Shown here: in pieces, positions 27,825 to 32,743 of the stretch
Layout of the letters: every line of letters starts with the position of its first letter
Numbering within the stretch: position 1 is the stretch's first letter
Source of the DNA: Stigmatella aurantiaca DW4/3-1
GTDB taxonomy: Bacteria > Myxococcota > Myxococcia > Myxococcales > Myxococcaceae
Reading direction: 5' to 3'
Length of the DNA stretch: 64,000 nucleotides
NCBI RefSeq assembly: GCF_000165485.1
Contig: NC_014623.1
Coordinates: 3,925,501 to 3,989,500, forward strand
Position numbers and translations under genes: made by a program
Notes under the pieces: model-generated
What the model was told of the DNA's origin: nothing
Seen by the model: only the letters and a program-made list of their open reading frames with translations
Databases searched by the model: none

Positions 27825-28079
27825 TCAAATCGCCATATCCCGGGTGATGGGGCAGATGACGATGCCGCAGGTGGGGCGGACAGGACCGGTGCAGCCCGTT
27901 GACGGGCCGATTTCCCCTTTGGACACCTGCCCGCCCGTGATGCCGAGCAGCTCCTCTTCACTGAGTTCGGACAGCGGCTGACCGGAGGGACTCTCGGGCA
28001 GAGCCGCGCGCTCCTCGGGGGAAAGGCTTGCGCGGAAGGCAGGGTCTTTCCAGGCACGAATGATGTTCTTCGGGTTCAT
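27825..28079 (-). CDS. Mersacidin/lichenicidin-type lanthipeptide precursor
   Basis: The 84-residue peptide has the type 2 lantibiotic leader pattern: NIIRAWKDPAFRASLSPEE at the start, then ELSEEELLGITGG ending in the double glycine at 49-50, where a C39 peptidase would cut. The 34-residue core has three Cys (63, 71, 76) and six Ser/Thr (53, 60, 61, 64, 70, 79), including STGCTG and TCGIVIC, enough for up to three (methyl)lanthionine rings. The ATG at 28079 has GGAGAG upstream; longer starts read into the control region. No LanM synthetase gene is in the window, so modification must come from elsewhere, if it occurs. Confidence 0.85.
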   Translation of the reverse strand: MNPKNIIRAWKDPAFRASLSPEERAALPESPSGQPLSELSEEELLGITGGQVSKGEIGPSTGCTGPVRPTCGIVICPITRDMAI

Positions 28080-28156
28080 GGTGTTCTCTCCGGGAGTGCC
28101 TCGGTCCGCGAGGGGCGGCGGGGCCTCATGGGAAGAGAGTGCCCCGGAACAAAACC

Positions 28157-28232
28157 GTGACAGGGGGGCCGCTGCGAGGCGGCTGCCTTGTCCTCCAGCC
28201 AAGACACGCATGCCCTTGCCATCCCCTGTCAC
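28157..28232. promoter_or_regulatory. Inverted repeat pair in the divergent peptide control region
   Basis: GTGACAGGGG (28157-28166) and CCCCTGTCAC (28223-28232) are perfect 10-bp inverted copies, 56 bp apart, inside the 213-bp gap between the two divergent peptide genes. The spacing (about six helical turns centre to centre) would let one dimeric regulator bridge both sites by looping. No -10/-35 pair could be picked with confidence. Confidence 0.5.
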
Positions 28233-28259
28233 AAGGGCCATGCCCGCGCCCTCTGTCTG

Positions 28260-28278
28260 AATGCCCACTCAGGGCATT
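28260..28278 (+). promoter_or_regulatory. Hairpin directly before the ribosome-binding site of the 54-residue peptide
   Basis: AATGCCC (28260-28266), loop ACTCA, GGGCATT (28272-28278) form a perfect 7-bp stem. The strong ribosome-binding site GGAGGAG (28280-28286) starts 1 nt later and lies 6 nt before the ATG. The stem could control ribosome access or protect the 5' end of the message, or be a DNA operator. Confidence 0.5.
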
Positions 28279-28292
28279 TGGAGGAGACGTCC

Positions 28293-28457
28293 ATGAGCCA
28301 CAAGACGGAAGTGCAGGAGAAGCGGCTGGTGCATCAGGGGATCGAGATCGATGACAAGGATTTGATCACCGTCATCGGCGGTGCCGCGGCTGAGAAGCCC
28401 AAGCACCAGGTCACCGTGAAGCCGGATGGCACGATTGTCATCGTCGTTTACCGGTGA
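28293..28457 (+). CDS. Small double-glycine peptide, likely exported (no known family)
   Basis: The 54-residue peptide has a hydrophilic N-terminal part, then DDKDLITVIGG ending in Gly-Gly at 29-30, which resembles leaders cut by C39-peptidase exporters. The remaining 24 residues (AAAEKPKHQVTVKPDGTIVI and on) have no Cys or Ser and only two Thr, so lanthionine chemistry is not possible; the end is beta-prone and hydrophobic (TIVIVVYR). GGAGGAG is well placed before the ATG. It lies convergent to a C39 ABC exporter gene and divergent from a lanthipeptide precursor. It may be an unmodified bacteriocin-like or signalling peptide. No family is recognised. Confidence 0.7.
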   Translation: MSHKTEVQEKRLVHQGIEIDDKDLITVIGGAAAEKPKHQVTVKPDGTIVIVVYR

Positions 28458-28464
28458 CGGACGT

Positions 28465-28499
28465 CCGGTGGCGGGCAGCCCTGGGCTGCTCGCCGCCGG
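28465..28499. terminator. Strong bidirectional terminator hairpin
   Basis: CCGGTGGCGGGCAGCC (28465-28480) and GGCTGCTCGCCGCCGG (28484-28499) pair over 16 positions, two of them as wobble pairs, around a 3-nt loop. It lies in the 59 bp between the convergent small-peptide and ABC-exporter genes, followed by TCTTCTGTGTGTGT on the plus strand. It probably ends transcription from the peptide gene and may do so for both. Confidence 0.7.
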
Positions 28500-28516: not shown

Positions 28517-30748
28517 TTACTCCAGTCGTCCTGTCTGCCGCACCTGGGCGCTCACCAGCCGCGAGTAGAATCCCCCGCGTGAGAGCAGTTCCTCGTGCGA
28601 GCCTGACTCCACCAGACGGCCCTCGTCCATGACCAGGATGAGGTCTGCCTCCACCACGGTGCTCAGCCGGTGGGCAATCACGATGCGCGTGCAGCTCAGA
28701 CCCGCCAGGGCCTGCTGCACCTTGCGCTCGGTGATGGCATCCAAGGCACTGGTGGCCTCGTCGAGCAGGAGCACGGCGGGCTTTTGCATCAGCGCCCGGG
28801 CCAGGGCCAGCCGCTGCCGCTGGCCACCAGAGAGGGAAGCCCCCTGATCCACCAAGGGCGTGTCATAGCCCATCGGCATGGCCATGATGTCCTCATGGAG
28901 CTGGGCCAGCCGCGCCGCCTCGGTGATGGACTCGAGCGGCTTCCCCGGATCCGAGAGCGCGATGTTGGCACGCAGCGAGGAGCTGAAGAAGGCGGGCTCC
29001 TGGGGCACGACGCCGAGCTGGCTGCGCACCGAGTGCAAGTCCAGCTCGGAGAGATCCTGCGCGTCGAAGAGCACGCGTCCAGAGGTAGGCAAGTACAGGC
29101 CGAGCAGCAGGCTGGCCAGGGTGGACTTGCCCGCCCCCGAGCGGCCGACGATGGCCACGAACTGTCCGGGCGCGATGCGCACCGACACGTCCTGCACCAC
29201 CAGCGGCGCCAGGGGAGAGTAGCGGAATGCCACGTTGTCCAGCTCGATGCCGCCGCGCAGCGTGATGGAGCGTCCCAGCTGGCCTGGGGCGCGCTCGGGA
29301 GGGGTATCCAGCACGTCGTCGATGCGCTCGATGTAGCTGCGCAGGAGCTGGAGCTGGGTGCCGGTGGTGACCAGGTTGGCCAACGGCACGAGCAGGGCGC
29401 CGGCCAAGGCGTTCAGGCCCATCATGGTGCCCAGCGACATTTTCCCCGCCAGCACTTGCAGCGCGCCGAAGGTGAGCAGGATGAGGGGAGAGGCCATGCG
29501 CAAGGTGCCCGTGAGCGCATCTACCCAGGCGGCGAGCTGGCCCCGCTTCAGCGAGACATTGAGCACGTTGACGAGGAGTTCCGAGAAGCGCTGCACCGCT
29601 TGGTGTTCCACACCGAAGGCCTTGAGCGTCTGGATGCCGGTGAGCATTTCAATCTGATAGCTCTGGCTCTTGGCCTCCACCTCCAGGTTCTCGGACAGCA
29701 AGGCGCGCTGCCGGTGGGTGGAGAGCAGCAGGATGAGGATTTGCAGCAGGCTGAGTCCCAGGACGAGCAGCGCCATGAAGGGGCTCACCGCCACCAGCAG
29801 CACGAGGTAGAGGACCACGAGCACACCATCCAGCACCCCGGAGATGGCACTGGAGGAGAGGATTTCTCGCACGGTGGAGTTGCTGTTGAGGCGGGCCAGG
29901 AGATCTCCCGCGGCACGGACCTGGAAGAAGGCGTAGGAGAGGCTGACGAGGTGCTCCAGGAAGCTGAGCGTCATGCTGGAGTCCATGCGCGTGCGCAGCT
30001 CCAGCAGCAGGTGGCCCCGGATGAGGGACGTCAGAAGCTGGAAGCCAGCCAGCGACAGGAGTCCCAGCCCCACCACGAGCAGCAGGTGCTGGTCCCCCCG
30101 GGGCACCACGCGGTCGATGATGATGCCGGTGAGCGCGGGCACCGCCAGCGCGAAGAGCTGAAGCACCAGGGAGACGGTGAGGATGCGGCCCAGTGAGTGG
30201 GATTGCTGGATGACCTGGAGGGCATAGCGGGAGGCATTGCGGGGCTGGGCCTTGCGCGTCTCGAAGTGCTCTCCAGGTTCGAGCAGCAAGGCCACGCCGG
30301 TGAAGGACTGGCGAAAGCGCTCCATGGGCACGCGGCGCCGGCCGTGCCCGGGGTCCACGACGTGAACGCAGTCCCGGCCGAGCCGCTCGAAGACGACGAA
30401 GTGTGAGAATTGCCAGTGGAGGATGGTGCCGGTGGGCAGGTAGCGCAGCGCCTCCGGGCCGATGGAGACGCCCCGTCCCCGCATGCCGAAAGACCGGGCT
30501 GCCCGGAGGATGTCCAGGGCCGAGACGCCATCACGCGCGGCCCCCATGGTCTGGCGTACCTGCTCCAGCCGTGTGGGGCGGCCGTGGAAACCCATCGTCA
30601 TCGCCAGGCAGGCGGCGCCGCACTCGGTCTCCGAGAGCTGGTGGACAATGGGGATGCGGCGCCCGCGTGCGCGGGCCTGGAGGTTCTGCAGGGCGGGAAA
30701 GCGGTGGGTGAGGGGCGAGGGCTGGGGACTGGCTTCATCGGTCTTCAT
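28517..30748 (-). CDS. Peptidase-containing ABC exporter (C39, bacteriocin/lantibiotic type)
   Basis: The 743-residue protein joins an N-terminal C39 peptidase (about 30-150; Gln37, Cys43 in TECGAACLA, His116 in SHFVVFE, Asp132 in VDPGHG), a six-helix ABC membrane domain (about 185-460), and a complete ATPase domain: Walker A GRSGAGKST, signature LSGGQRQRL, Walker B VLLLDEATSALD, H-loop IAHRLST. Such exporters remove a double-glycine leader while secreting the peptide. Two candidate substrates lie immediately downstream. Its start overlaps the adaptor gene by 14 bp, so the export genes form an operon. No TolC gene is near. Confidence 0.93.
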   Translation of the reverse strand: MKTDEASPQPSPLTHRFPALQNLQARARGRRIPIVHQLSETECGAACLAMTMGFHGRPTRLEQVRQTMGAARDGVSALDILRAARSFGMRGRGVSIGPEALRYLPTGTILHWQFSHFVVFERLGRDCVHVVDPGHGRRRVPMERFRQSFTGVALLLEPGEHFETRKAQPRNASRYALQVIQQSHSLGRILTVSLVLQLFALAVPALTGIIIDRVVPRGDQHLLLVVGLGLLSLAGFQLLTSLIRGHLLLELRTRMDSSMTLSFLEHLVSLSYAFFQVRAAGDLLARLNSNSTVREILSSSAISGVLDGVLVVLYLVLLVAVSPFMALLVLGLSLLQILILLLSTHRQRALLSENLEVEAKSQSYQIEMLTGIQTLKAFGVEHQAVQRFSELLVNVLNVSLKRGQLAAWVDALTGTLRMASPLILLTFGALQVLAGKMSLGTMMGLNALAGALLVPLANLVTTGTQLQLLRSYIERIDDVLDTPPERAPGQLGRSITLRGGIELDNVAFRYSPLAPLVVQDVSVRIAPGQFVAIVGRSGAGKSTLASLLLGLYLPTSGRVLFDAQDLSELDLHSVRSQLGVVPQEPAFFSSSLRANIALSDPGKPLESITEAARLAQLHEDIMAMPMGYDTPLVDQGASLSGGQRQRLALARALMQKPAVLLLDEATSALDAITERKVQQALAGLSCTRIVIAHRLSTVVEADLILVMDEGRLVESGSHEELLSRGGFYSRLVSAQVRQTGRLE

Positions 30749-31685
30749 ATCCCAGGGCTCCCTTCAAGCCGGGCACGAGGGCCACGAGGATGCGTTCGGA
30801 GCGAACGCGGGCATCGGCGCGTGCTTGCATGCCATCGAAGAAGTTGAAGGCGCGCCGCTTGCTGAGGAACGTGGGCGAGTCGATGCGTGCCCGCACCATC
30901 ACCAGGGGACCCGAGAGGGTGAGGGCGTCCGCGACGTCCGGGCCCAGGAACCGGCGGGCCTCATTGGGGCCGATGATCTGGTCTCCCACCGATTCGATGC
31001 GCATCTCATGATACTCGTGGGGAAAGCCGTTGAACTCGACGCGCAGCGCGCGGCCCGGCTCGAGCATGGGCCGGTAGCCTCCTGGCAGCAGGGCCAGCAG
31101 CGTCACGTGCACGTCATCGCCGATGAGGGTGACGACGCTGGCGCCGGGCGAGATGTACTGGCCGGGGCGGACGCGCAGGGAGCCCACCACCCCGGCATGG
31201 GGCGCGCGCAGGGTGCGGTCCTGTTGCCGGGCCTGGGCCAGTTCCCGCTCGGCACGCAGCGAGGTGAGCGTCTGCCGGGCCGACTCGTCCGTGGGCTCTC
31301 TCAGCACCCGCAAGAGCTGAAGCTCGAACTCACGCTGGATGCGGTCCAGGGAGGCGGTCTCTCCCTGAGCAAGGAAGGTCACCAGCGGTTGTCCCGCCTC
31401 CACGCGTTGACCCGTCTTCACCTTCACGGACGCCACGAGGCCTGGGGTGTCCACGGACAGGTTGCTGCGCCCCTCCACCTCCACCACAGCGGGGCCGGAG
31501 GCGTACTCGGGCAGGGTGCCCAGCGCGGAGTAGGCCAGCGTGGAGAGCAGGAGGGCGAGCAGGACCCAGTAGGTCCATCGCGTCCACTCCGGAGCGATGC
31601 GCAGCAGTTCGCCCTCTTGCTGGGCTCCCTCGTGGTGGCGCAGGGCTTCCTCGCGGAAGATGCGGGGACGGTCTTCAGCGCTCAT
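30735..31685 (-). CDS. HlyD-family adaptor for peptide export
   Basis: The 316-residue protein has a short cytoplasmic start, one membrane helix (about 36-56) and a periplasmic HlyD-type part: a lipoyl half (GLVASVKVKTGQRVEAGQPL), a fairly short helical hairpin (about 110-155), the second lipoyl half (APHAGVVGSLRVRPGQYISP) and a beta-barrel end. It matches adaptors that link peptidase-ABC exporters to an outer-membrane channel. It overlaps the ABC gene by 14 bp and the second adaptor gene as ATGA, so all three should be made together. Confidence 0.88.
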   Translation of the reverse strand: MSAEDRPRIFREEALRHHEGAQQEGELLRIAPEWTRWTYWVLLALLLSTLAYSALGTLPEYASGPAVVEVEGRSNLSVDTPGLVASVKVKTGQRVEAGQPLVTFLAQGETASLDRIQREFELQLLRVLREPTDESARQTLTSLRAERELAQARQQDRTLRAPHAGVVGSLRVRPGQYISPGASVVTLIGDDVHVTLLALLPGGYRPMLEPGRALRVEFNGFPHEYHEMRIESVGDQIIGPNEARRFLGPDVADALTLSGPLVMVRARIDSPTFLSKRRAFNFFDGMQARADARVRSERILVALVPGLKGALGYEDR

Positions 31686-32644
31686 GGTGCGGCCCCCCGG
31701 GCAGAAGCGGCCTGGGCCTTATCCTTCCCCAGTGGGAGCGGGGCCTCGGCGCGGACGTGCACCACCTGGCCCGTGGAGACATTGTCCGCAGGGGGTTGGT
31801 TGAAGGTCGCGATGGCGAAGACCAGGCGGGCCGCGGTGTCCACCTCGGGGGCGATGCTCTCCACGGTACCGGTGAGCGAAGCGCCCTGTTGAACCACCCA
31901 CAGCTGGACCGGAGCGCCCTCGTAAAGCTGGCGGGCCGCACCTTCCGGCAAGGCGAACCGGACCTTCCAGCCTCTCCTTCCGAGCAGCCGGAGAACCGGT
32001 TGTCCCGCGGCCACGCGTGAGCCGGGGCCGATGAGGCGGGCGGCGATGACGCCCTCGAAGGGGGCGGTCAGCGTGGCCTCCTGGAGGTTCTGTTCCAGTT
32101 CGGCCACTTGGGCCTTCCGCTCGCGTGCCTGCGCCTGCGCGGACTCCAGGCGGGCCAGGGCGGTGCTCTCCCGGTAGCGGAGGCCGTCCAACTCCTCCTG
32201 CGAGTAGACGCCCAGCGCGAGGGAACGCGGGGTGTTGTAGCGCTTCCTCTTGACGCGGGCCTCGGAGAGCGCGAGCGAAGCGGCTTGAACCTCGGCCTGG
32301 GCCGCCTGGAGCGTGGCGCGCGCGGCGCTGAGATTCTGCTGCAGGGAGCGGGTGTCGAGCCGCGCCAGCACCTGTCCCTTCTGGACGGTGTCACCCACCT
32401 CGACGTCCATCTCCTGGAGTTGGGACTCGAAGCGGGGGCTCAGATCGGCGGAATCCTGGGGAATGATGACTCCCAGGAAGGGGCCGGTGGCCCCCGCCCG
32501 GGAGACGCCGTCGTCCACCACCAGGGCGGGCGGCGTGTCACCCAGGCGGGGGACGGATCCGGAGCGCACGGGTACCGGGTTTGCCCATCCCCCTATGCCC
32601 ACGAGGCTCAGCCCGAGGGCCACCGTCCTTGCCCACCCGCTCAT
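31682..32644 (-). CDS. Second periplasmic adaptor (RND/HlyD type)
   Basis: The 320-residue protein has a signal peptide (about 1-21) and the membrane-fusion fold: lipoyl half MDVEVGDTVQKGQVLARL (about 78-95), a long coiled-coil hairpin (about 98-195) rich in Ala/Gln/Glu/Arg, then APFEGVIAARLIGPGSRV and a barrel domain. It looks more like adaptors of RND pumps than of type 1 secretion. An exporter operon with two different adaptors is uncommon; they may pair, or one may serve another pump. AGGGAG lies upstream of the ATG. Confidence 0.85.
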   Translation of the reverse strand: MSGWARTVALGLSLVGIGGWANPVPVRSGSVPRLGDTPPALVVDDGVSRAGATGPFLGVIIPQDSADLSPRFESQLQEMDVEVGDTVQKGQVLARLDTRSLQQNLSAARATLQAAQAEVQAASLALSEARVKRKRYNTPRSLALGVYSQEELDGLRYRESTALARLESAQAQARERKAQVAELEQNLQEATLTAPFEGVIAARLIGPGSRVAAGQPVLRLLGRRGWKVRFALPEGAARQLYEGAPVQLWVVQQGASLTGTVESIAPEVDTAARLVFAIATFNQPPADNVSTGQVVHVRAEAPLPLGKDKAQAASARGAAP

Positions 32645-32743
32645 CCTGCAGCTCCCTGAAAGGATCCATCCAGGAGGAGGGGGCCCAGCGGCGTTGTGAC
32701 GCCGGGCGGGGGTGCTTGCTGGGCAAGGAGGCTCCGTTCCTGC

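Follow-up and report, generated by a model that had tools for sequence, protein, structure and literature searches.

The peptide gene and its surroundings

In the analysed window, a stretch of 64,000 nucleotides of the Stigmatella aurantiaca genome (G000), a short gene diverges from a class II lanthipeptide precursor gene and converges with the operon of a C39 peptidase-containing exporter, an arrangement that agrees with the original prediction (Table 1). The reading frame 28293–28457(+) is a genuine and previously undescribed gene of 54 residues. Its coding score of 0.59 bits per codon exceeds that of all 163 open reading frames of 45–80 amino acids in the window and falls within the upper half of real gene segments. 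Upstream extension of the frame to a TTG at 28188 scores ~0.05, which makes the ATG at 28293 the likely start. The strong ribosome site that had been predicted is present and is kept in the related genome G005. The predicted terminator likewise consists of a 16-bp stem followed by a T-rich tail (MFE z = −5.7), and its hairpin is still strong in G005. The stop codons of the peptide and exporter genes lie 59 bp apart, and both strands could use the same hairpin. The Gly-Gly at positions 29–30 and the 24-residue core free of Cys and Ser were also confirmed. The remaining genes in the vicinity encode nucleotidyltransferase-like and MscS-like products besides lanthipeptide B, the peptidase-containing exporter (PCAT) and two membrane fusion proteins.

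Searches of the 54-residue peptide against Pfam and NCBIfam gave no match above cut-off, the leader reaching a sub-threshold 13.0 bits with TIGR01847 (cut-off 15.7). This, together with the shortness of the frame, is what would be expected of a spurious or non-coding ORF above a regulatory or terminator region. The coding score is reinforced by in-frame indels, a low core dN/dS and five homologues in two genomic contexts (see below), and a spurious frame is thus exceedingly improbable.

The neighbouring exporter retains the catalytic Cys, His and Asp of its C39 domain and accounts for the only C39 peptidase match in the whole 10.26-Mb genome (10,260,756 bases). It is apparently the orphan LanT STIAU_4626, which the available part of a published account lists with HlyD and without LanM (PMC3951391). 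The hairpin peptide, a remote LanM partner and a promoter class find no mention in that part of the account.

Table 1 Features of the peptide locus, in window coordinates
Feature	Position	Strand	Details
Class II lanthipeptide precursor B, mersacidin/lichenicidin-type leader	27825..28079	-	84 aa; TIGR03898 E 2e-21
Promoter-like module, lanthipeptide B	28127..28162	-	TGTCACG-N16-CTCTCTTCCCATG; score 14.3, shuffle p 0.0025
Promoter-like module, peptide gene	28227..28263	+	TGTCACA-N17-CTCTGTCTGAATG; 66 bp before ATG
Inverted repeat, 5' region of peptide gene	28260..28278	+	AATGCCC-N5-GGGCATT; resembles 5' regions of lanthipeptide A genes
Ribosome-binding site	28280..28286	+	GGAGGAG; kept in G005
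Double-glycine precursor gene	28293..28457	+	54 aa; leader MSHKTEVQEKRLVHQGIEIDDKDLITVIGG, core AAAEKPKHQVTVKPDGTIVIVVYR
Leader, residues 1-30, canonical double-glycine type	28293..28382	+	I19(-12), D23(-8), L24(-7), V27(-4), G29-G30; five-sequence alignment
Core, predicted beta-hairpin	28383..28454	+	24 aa, about 2620 Da; strands 37-42 and 48-53, turn KPDGT
Terminator hairpin between convergent peptide and exporter genes	28465..28499	.	possibly bidirectional
LanT-type peptidase-containing ABC exporter	28517..30748	-	C39 domain PF03412 E 2.5e-30; C43, H115, Asp of DPG motif
HlyD-type membrane fusion protein, exporter operon	30735..31685	-	profile match
Second membrane fusion / RND_mfp-type adaptor, first gene of exporter operon	31682..32644	-	profile match
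Promoter-like module, exporter operon	32667..32701	-	CGTCACA-N15-CTCCTCCTGGATG; 57 bp before first ATG

Homologues, predicted fold and constraint

Homologues are found in five of the seven genomes of the genus (G000, G005, G003, G002 and G006), with one gene each, while G001 and G004 of the same genus carry no hairpin gene. The frame and its Gly-Gly, on whose conservation the original prediction hung, are kept in all five. The leaders retain the hydrophobic residues at −12, −7 and −4 and the Gly-Gly, with position −8 varying (D, Q, Q, A, E). The leaders drift and the cores, of 20–24 residues and a net charge of +1.5 to +2.9, have the motif K-P-x(3)-V/I-x-V/I-x-PDGTI-x-V/I in common. Residues Leu-24, Val-27, Gly-29–Gly-30, Lys-35–Pro-36 and the segment Pro-44-Asp-Gly-Thr-Ile-48 are invariant in the five sequences, together with alternating β residues. 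The AlphaFold2 model of the peptide is a hairpin, with a pLDDT of 86 for residues 41–50. Modelling of the G002 homologue likewise gave a hairpin, although with five sequences the evidence is modest and the two models are not independent. A Foldseek search against the PDB gave no match at E ≤ 0.001. The core showed some likeness to a loop of chymotrypsin inhibitor 2 with the five-sequence profile (E 0.49) and none with the single sequence, and this was treated as chance.

The G005 orthologue is syntenic and 85% identical, with two in-frame indels, whereas the G003, G002 and G006 homologues combine diverged leaders with the same core motif. A core-only profile run on 195 Myxococcota genomes recovered the same five genes and nothing else above noise, and no convincing homologue outside the genus was found in those genomes, in GTDB contigs or in plasmids. 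The single matching GTDB contig has its match at the same place as in G003 and is presumably the G003 genome itself. Two gene copies (G000, G005) adjoin the exporter and the other three follow a Ku gene by about 70–150 bp. The Ku-linked copies have each retained a promoter-like site of their own and a terminator-like hairpin downstream, and a Ku search gave no match in G000 and G005; the linkage is therefore read as positional, and a functional association with Ku was rejected.

Across the genus, exactly one hairpin gene is present in each of the five genomes that combine LanM and TIGR03898 precursors with a LanT of 78–100% identity, while the two members that do not carry this set (G001, G004) have none. 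No hairpin peptide was found around the LanT orthologues of other genera. Other genera have the same LanT and lanthipeptides and do not have the peptide, which is therefore not needed for them in general.

Comparison of G000 with G005 gave a dN/dS of 0.51 for the peptide leader and 0.10 for its core, where 1 of 23 codons is replaced. The lanthipeptide B gene displays the opposite pattern, with 0.05 for the leader and 0.49 for the core. The two genes differ significantly in where constraint falls (interaction z = 3.2; Fisher p 0.009 for the comparison of the cores), although this contrast rests on few substitutions and the peptide leader against its core is by itself borderline (p = 0.06).

A promoter class in common with the lanthipeptide system

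Upstream comparison of the five hairpin genes revealed the module [T/C/A]GTCACA-N15-17-CTC[T/C]nTCT at 62–66 bp before the ATG. A fixed pattern derived from it matched 21 sites across the complete sequences of the seven genomes, while the reversed control matched 0, and 9 of the 21 precede hairpin (4) or lanthipeptide precursor (5) genes. A weight matrix trained only on the five hairpin promoters gave scores of at least 13.7 before 28 of 32 class II lanthipeptide precursors of the genus and other genera, at 67–92 bp before the start used. In comparison, 95% of 622 control genes scored below 10 (Mann–Whitney p 9e-18), and about 1% of random 150-mers reached a score of 12. The exporter operon is preceded by [C/T]GTCACA and an N15 spacer at 57–61 bp in 12 of 12 orthologous loci scored; a thirteenth locus (L139), where the start of the first gene could not be placed with certainty, lies outside this count. 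The link of the peptide with the lanthipeptide system, originally drawn from position, now rests on this promoter type in common and not on position alone. The regulon bearing the motif is not universal: the motif is absent before four lanthipeptide precursors (L024, L149, L151, L153), before class I precursors and paralogous exporters, and before LanM genes, which appear to be operon-internal.

The module resembles the ECF41 promoter signature TGTCACA-N16-CGTC, with a spacer of 16 ± 1 bp (PMC3426412), in its −35 element and spacer, but its −10 element is CTC[C/T] and not CGTC. The genomes compared are related and hence not independent, and a gene may be copied together with its promoter; the comparison therefore shows a shared promoter class and not yet a shared regulator.

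A stricter pattern gave six matches in the whole of G000, against two for the control, and two of the six fall before the window's own hairpin gene and exporter operon. The third is a microviridin-like (graspetide) precursor with two copies of [T]xK[FY]PSDSDE (8921421–8921615 of G000; L213, L214), also present in G005 (L215); the GTCACA-type promoter lies upstream of it in G000 and G005, and not clearly in the other three genomes. The fourth is a receiver-domain protein (MSTILLVDDEQ...; about 5.206 Mb, L211), a candidate regulator because in G020 and G003 homologous genes precede the LanT operon (L142:5552-5920; L083:4143-4625). In G005 and G000 (L186, L188), a GTCACA-N-CTCTGTCTG site lies some 58 bp ahead of the ATG of a possible peroxidase gene (MPAIHGFLPRNGEG...), which possibly belongs to the same regulon.

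The lanthipeptide system itself is dispersed. No LanM lies in the region around precursor B, and the LanM genes of G000 are at 287 kb and 5.02 Mb. The A/B pair is split in this genome, with B beside LanT and A together with LanM 3.67 Mb away (286–288 kb, L053). Orthologous B cores (..STGC.GP..TCGIV.CPI..) adjoin precursor A and LanM in G002, G003 and G006, while in G000 and G005 precursor A remains with LanM and B is located at LanT. Orthologues of the window's LanT in relatives from another genus adjoin B or A precursors, in some of these relatives with LanM. This arrangement identifies the exporter as the LanT of a dispersed lanthipeptide system, in which the partner of B is A and not the hairpin peptide. 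The second LanM locus (5012000-5031900, L054) has cupin-like, cyclase-like and B12-radical-SAM-like neighbours and no TIGR03898 precursor.

The original prediction had also offered the peptide as a helper of the lanthipeptide, and this part was not supported. A second peptide of a two-component class II lantibiotic of the lichenicidin/haloduracin type is called to mind by the neighbouring precursor B and LanT, which look like parts of such a system, and by the divergent position and common promoter type of the two genes in G000 and G005. However, the hairpin precursor lacks a TIGR03898 match, a LanM-type leader, Cys and Ser, its adjacency to a lanthipeptide gene is confined to these two sister genomes, and in the other three of the five it is distant from B. 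With the real A/B pair elsewhere, such a partnership is highly unlikely and was rejected.

Export and candidate roles of the peptide

With the leader pattern kept in five of five homologues, a core devoid of Cys and a sole C39 exporter in the genome, the predicted unmodified double-glycine substrate of a C39 exporter is supported. The peptide is probably cut after Gly-Gly and exported unmodified by this exporter. Since the promoter is also common with the exporter and the lanthipeptides, the peptide seems to be a member of the lanthipeptide regulon that LanT takes as an unmodified substrate. With moderate confidence, the gene product is regarded as a small unmodified secreted β-hairpin peptide of that regulon. 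In the proposed mechanism, one promoter class that precedes the hairpin gene, the LanT operon and the lanthipeptide precursors would be read by an ECF-type alternative sigma factor. LanT would bind the double-glycine leader through its C39 domain and cut after Gly-30. The 24-residue cationic hairpin would then leave the cell through the ABC/HlyD pump, to which a TolC-type channel presumably belongs. Once outside, it would most likely serve the lanthipeptide system as a companion or an inducing signal, in the manner of class II bacteriocin induction peptides.

In class II bacteriocin regulons, unmodified double-glycine induction peptides of the BlpC and PlnA types share promoter and exporter with the bacteriocins. 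The hairpin peptide is similar in its short, cationic and apparently unmodified core, its double-glycine leader, its C39 exporter and the single promoter class of peptide, precursors and exporter. It differs in that its gene has no adjoining histidine kinase or other receptor kinase, its promoter is ECF-like instead of a direct-repeat regulator box, its host is Gram-negative and its core is modelled as a β-hairpin. By this analogy, a role as extracellular signal or companion is plausible, though tentative. A pheromone-like regulator of myxobacterial lanthipeptide production, feeding back on a regulon of scattered RiPP precursors and a single LanT, would be the first of its kind and is a doubtful, more speculative extension.

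The original prediction had left open an unmodified bacteriocin or a signal; the unmodified state stood, and an ordinary bacteriocin fared less well. A narrow-spectrum, class II microcin-like bacteriocin, co-expressed and co-exported with the lanthipeptides as a toxic cocktail, its cationic and hydrophobic hairpin inserting into membranes or binding a target, would fit the double-glycine leader, the exporter with its fusion proteins, the promoter in common with the lanthipeptides and the positive charge of the cores. Class II microcins indeed combine a double-glycine leader, a PCAT with a membrane fusion protein and an unmodified core, but those cores are highly variable (PMC9746304), whereas here the core, of 20–24 residues, is the most conserved part of the peptide. 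In addition, no membrane protein of 51–216 residues that could confer immunity is encoded within three genes. A bacteriocin is thus unlikely, though it retains an appreciable share of the probability. A signal or companion is favoured over a toxin by the constraint on the core, which is the reverse of that on the lanthipeptide core, and by the lack of an immunity gene nearby. Taken with the promoter class, the co-occurrence (5/5 vs 0/2) and the likely export by LanT of a product that cannot be a lanthipeptide, these features make the peptide resemble induction peptides more than a microcin.

The third candidate is a secreted, β-rich surface or matrix peptide that self-assembles like the C39-exported EbfG1–3 of Synechococcus. 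In Synechococcus elongatus, the EbfG1–4 small proteins and the transporter PteB provide a precedent for unmodified double-glycine small proteins with a C39 transporter and a non-antibiotic role (PMC4997328, PMC9981879), to which the pairing predicted here in a Gram-negative host is similar, although EbfG1–4 form a four-gene operon with no known lanthipeptide link. The strand TIVIVVY is very aggregation-prone, its level being reached by 0.6% of 24-residue segments of the window's proteins on the scale used. However, the G002, G003 and G006 cores score much lower for aggregation and the common promoter ties the peptide to lanthipeptides and not to matrix genes, making a matrix role improbable.

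For the signal or companion reading, the hairpin peptide is a defined and easily synthesised candidate for a lanthipeptide-inducing signal. G000 has its two LanM loci, one C39 exporter and several RiPP precursors spread across megabases, yet these precursors and the exporter operon have their promoter class in common with the hairpin peptide. An anonymous ORF thereby becomes a regulon component that can be tested. The promoter motif also offers a handle for finding distant RiPP precursors and for asking what turns on myxobacterial lanthipeptides.

Further double-glycine families were observed. Near other C39 exporters (L086:14412-14856 (-); L087:8551-8742 (+)) lie precursors with class I-like leaders and Cys-free, alternating-β cores (GTITVTIKVSAE, GTVRVTIEISISADAQ, VEVSVGVGVGPVEVSVGVG), a LanB-like gene adjoining the L086 pair. 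Another family (L101:1462-1653 and L105:1309-1671; ..SLVELDDETLETVVGGYSSDD.. and ..TLVELDDEQLDAVVGGYARD..) is followed in each case by a conserved gene of ~460 residues.
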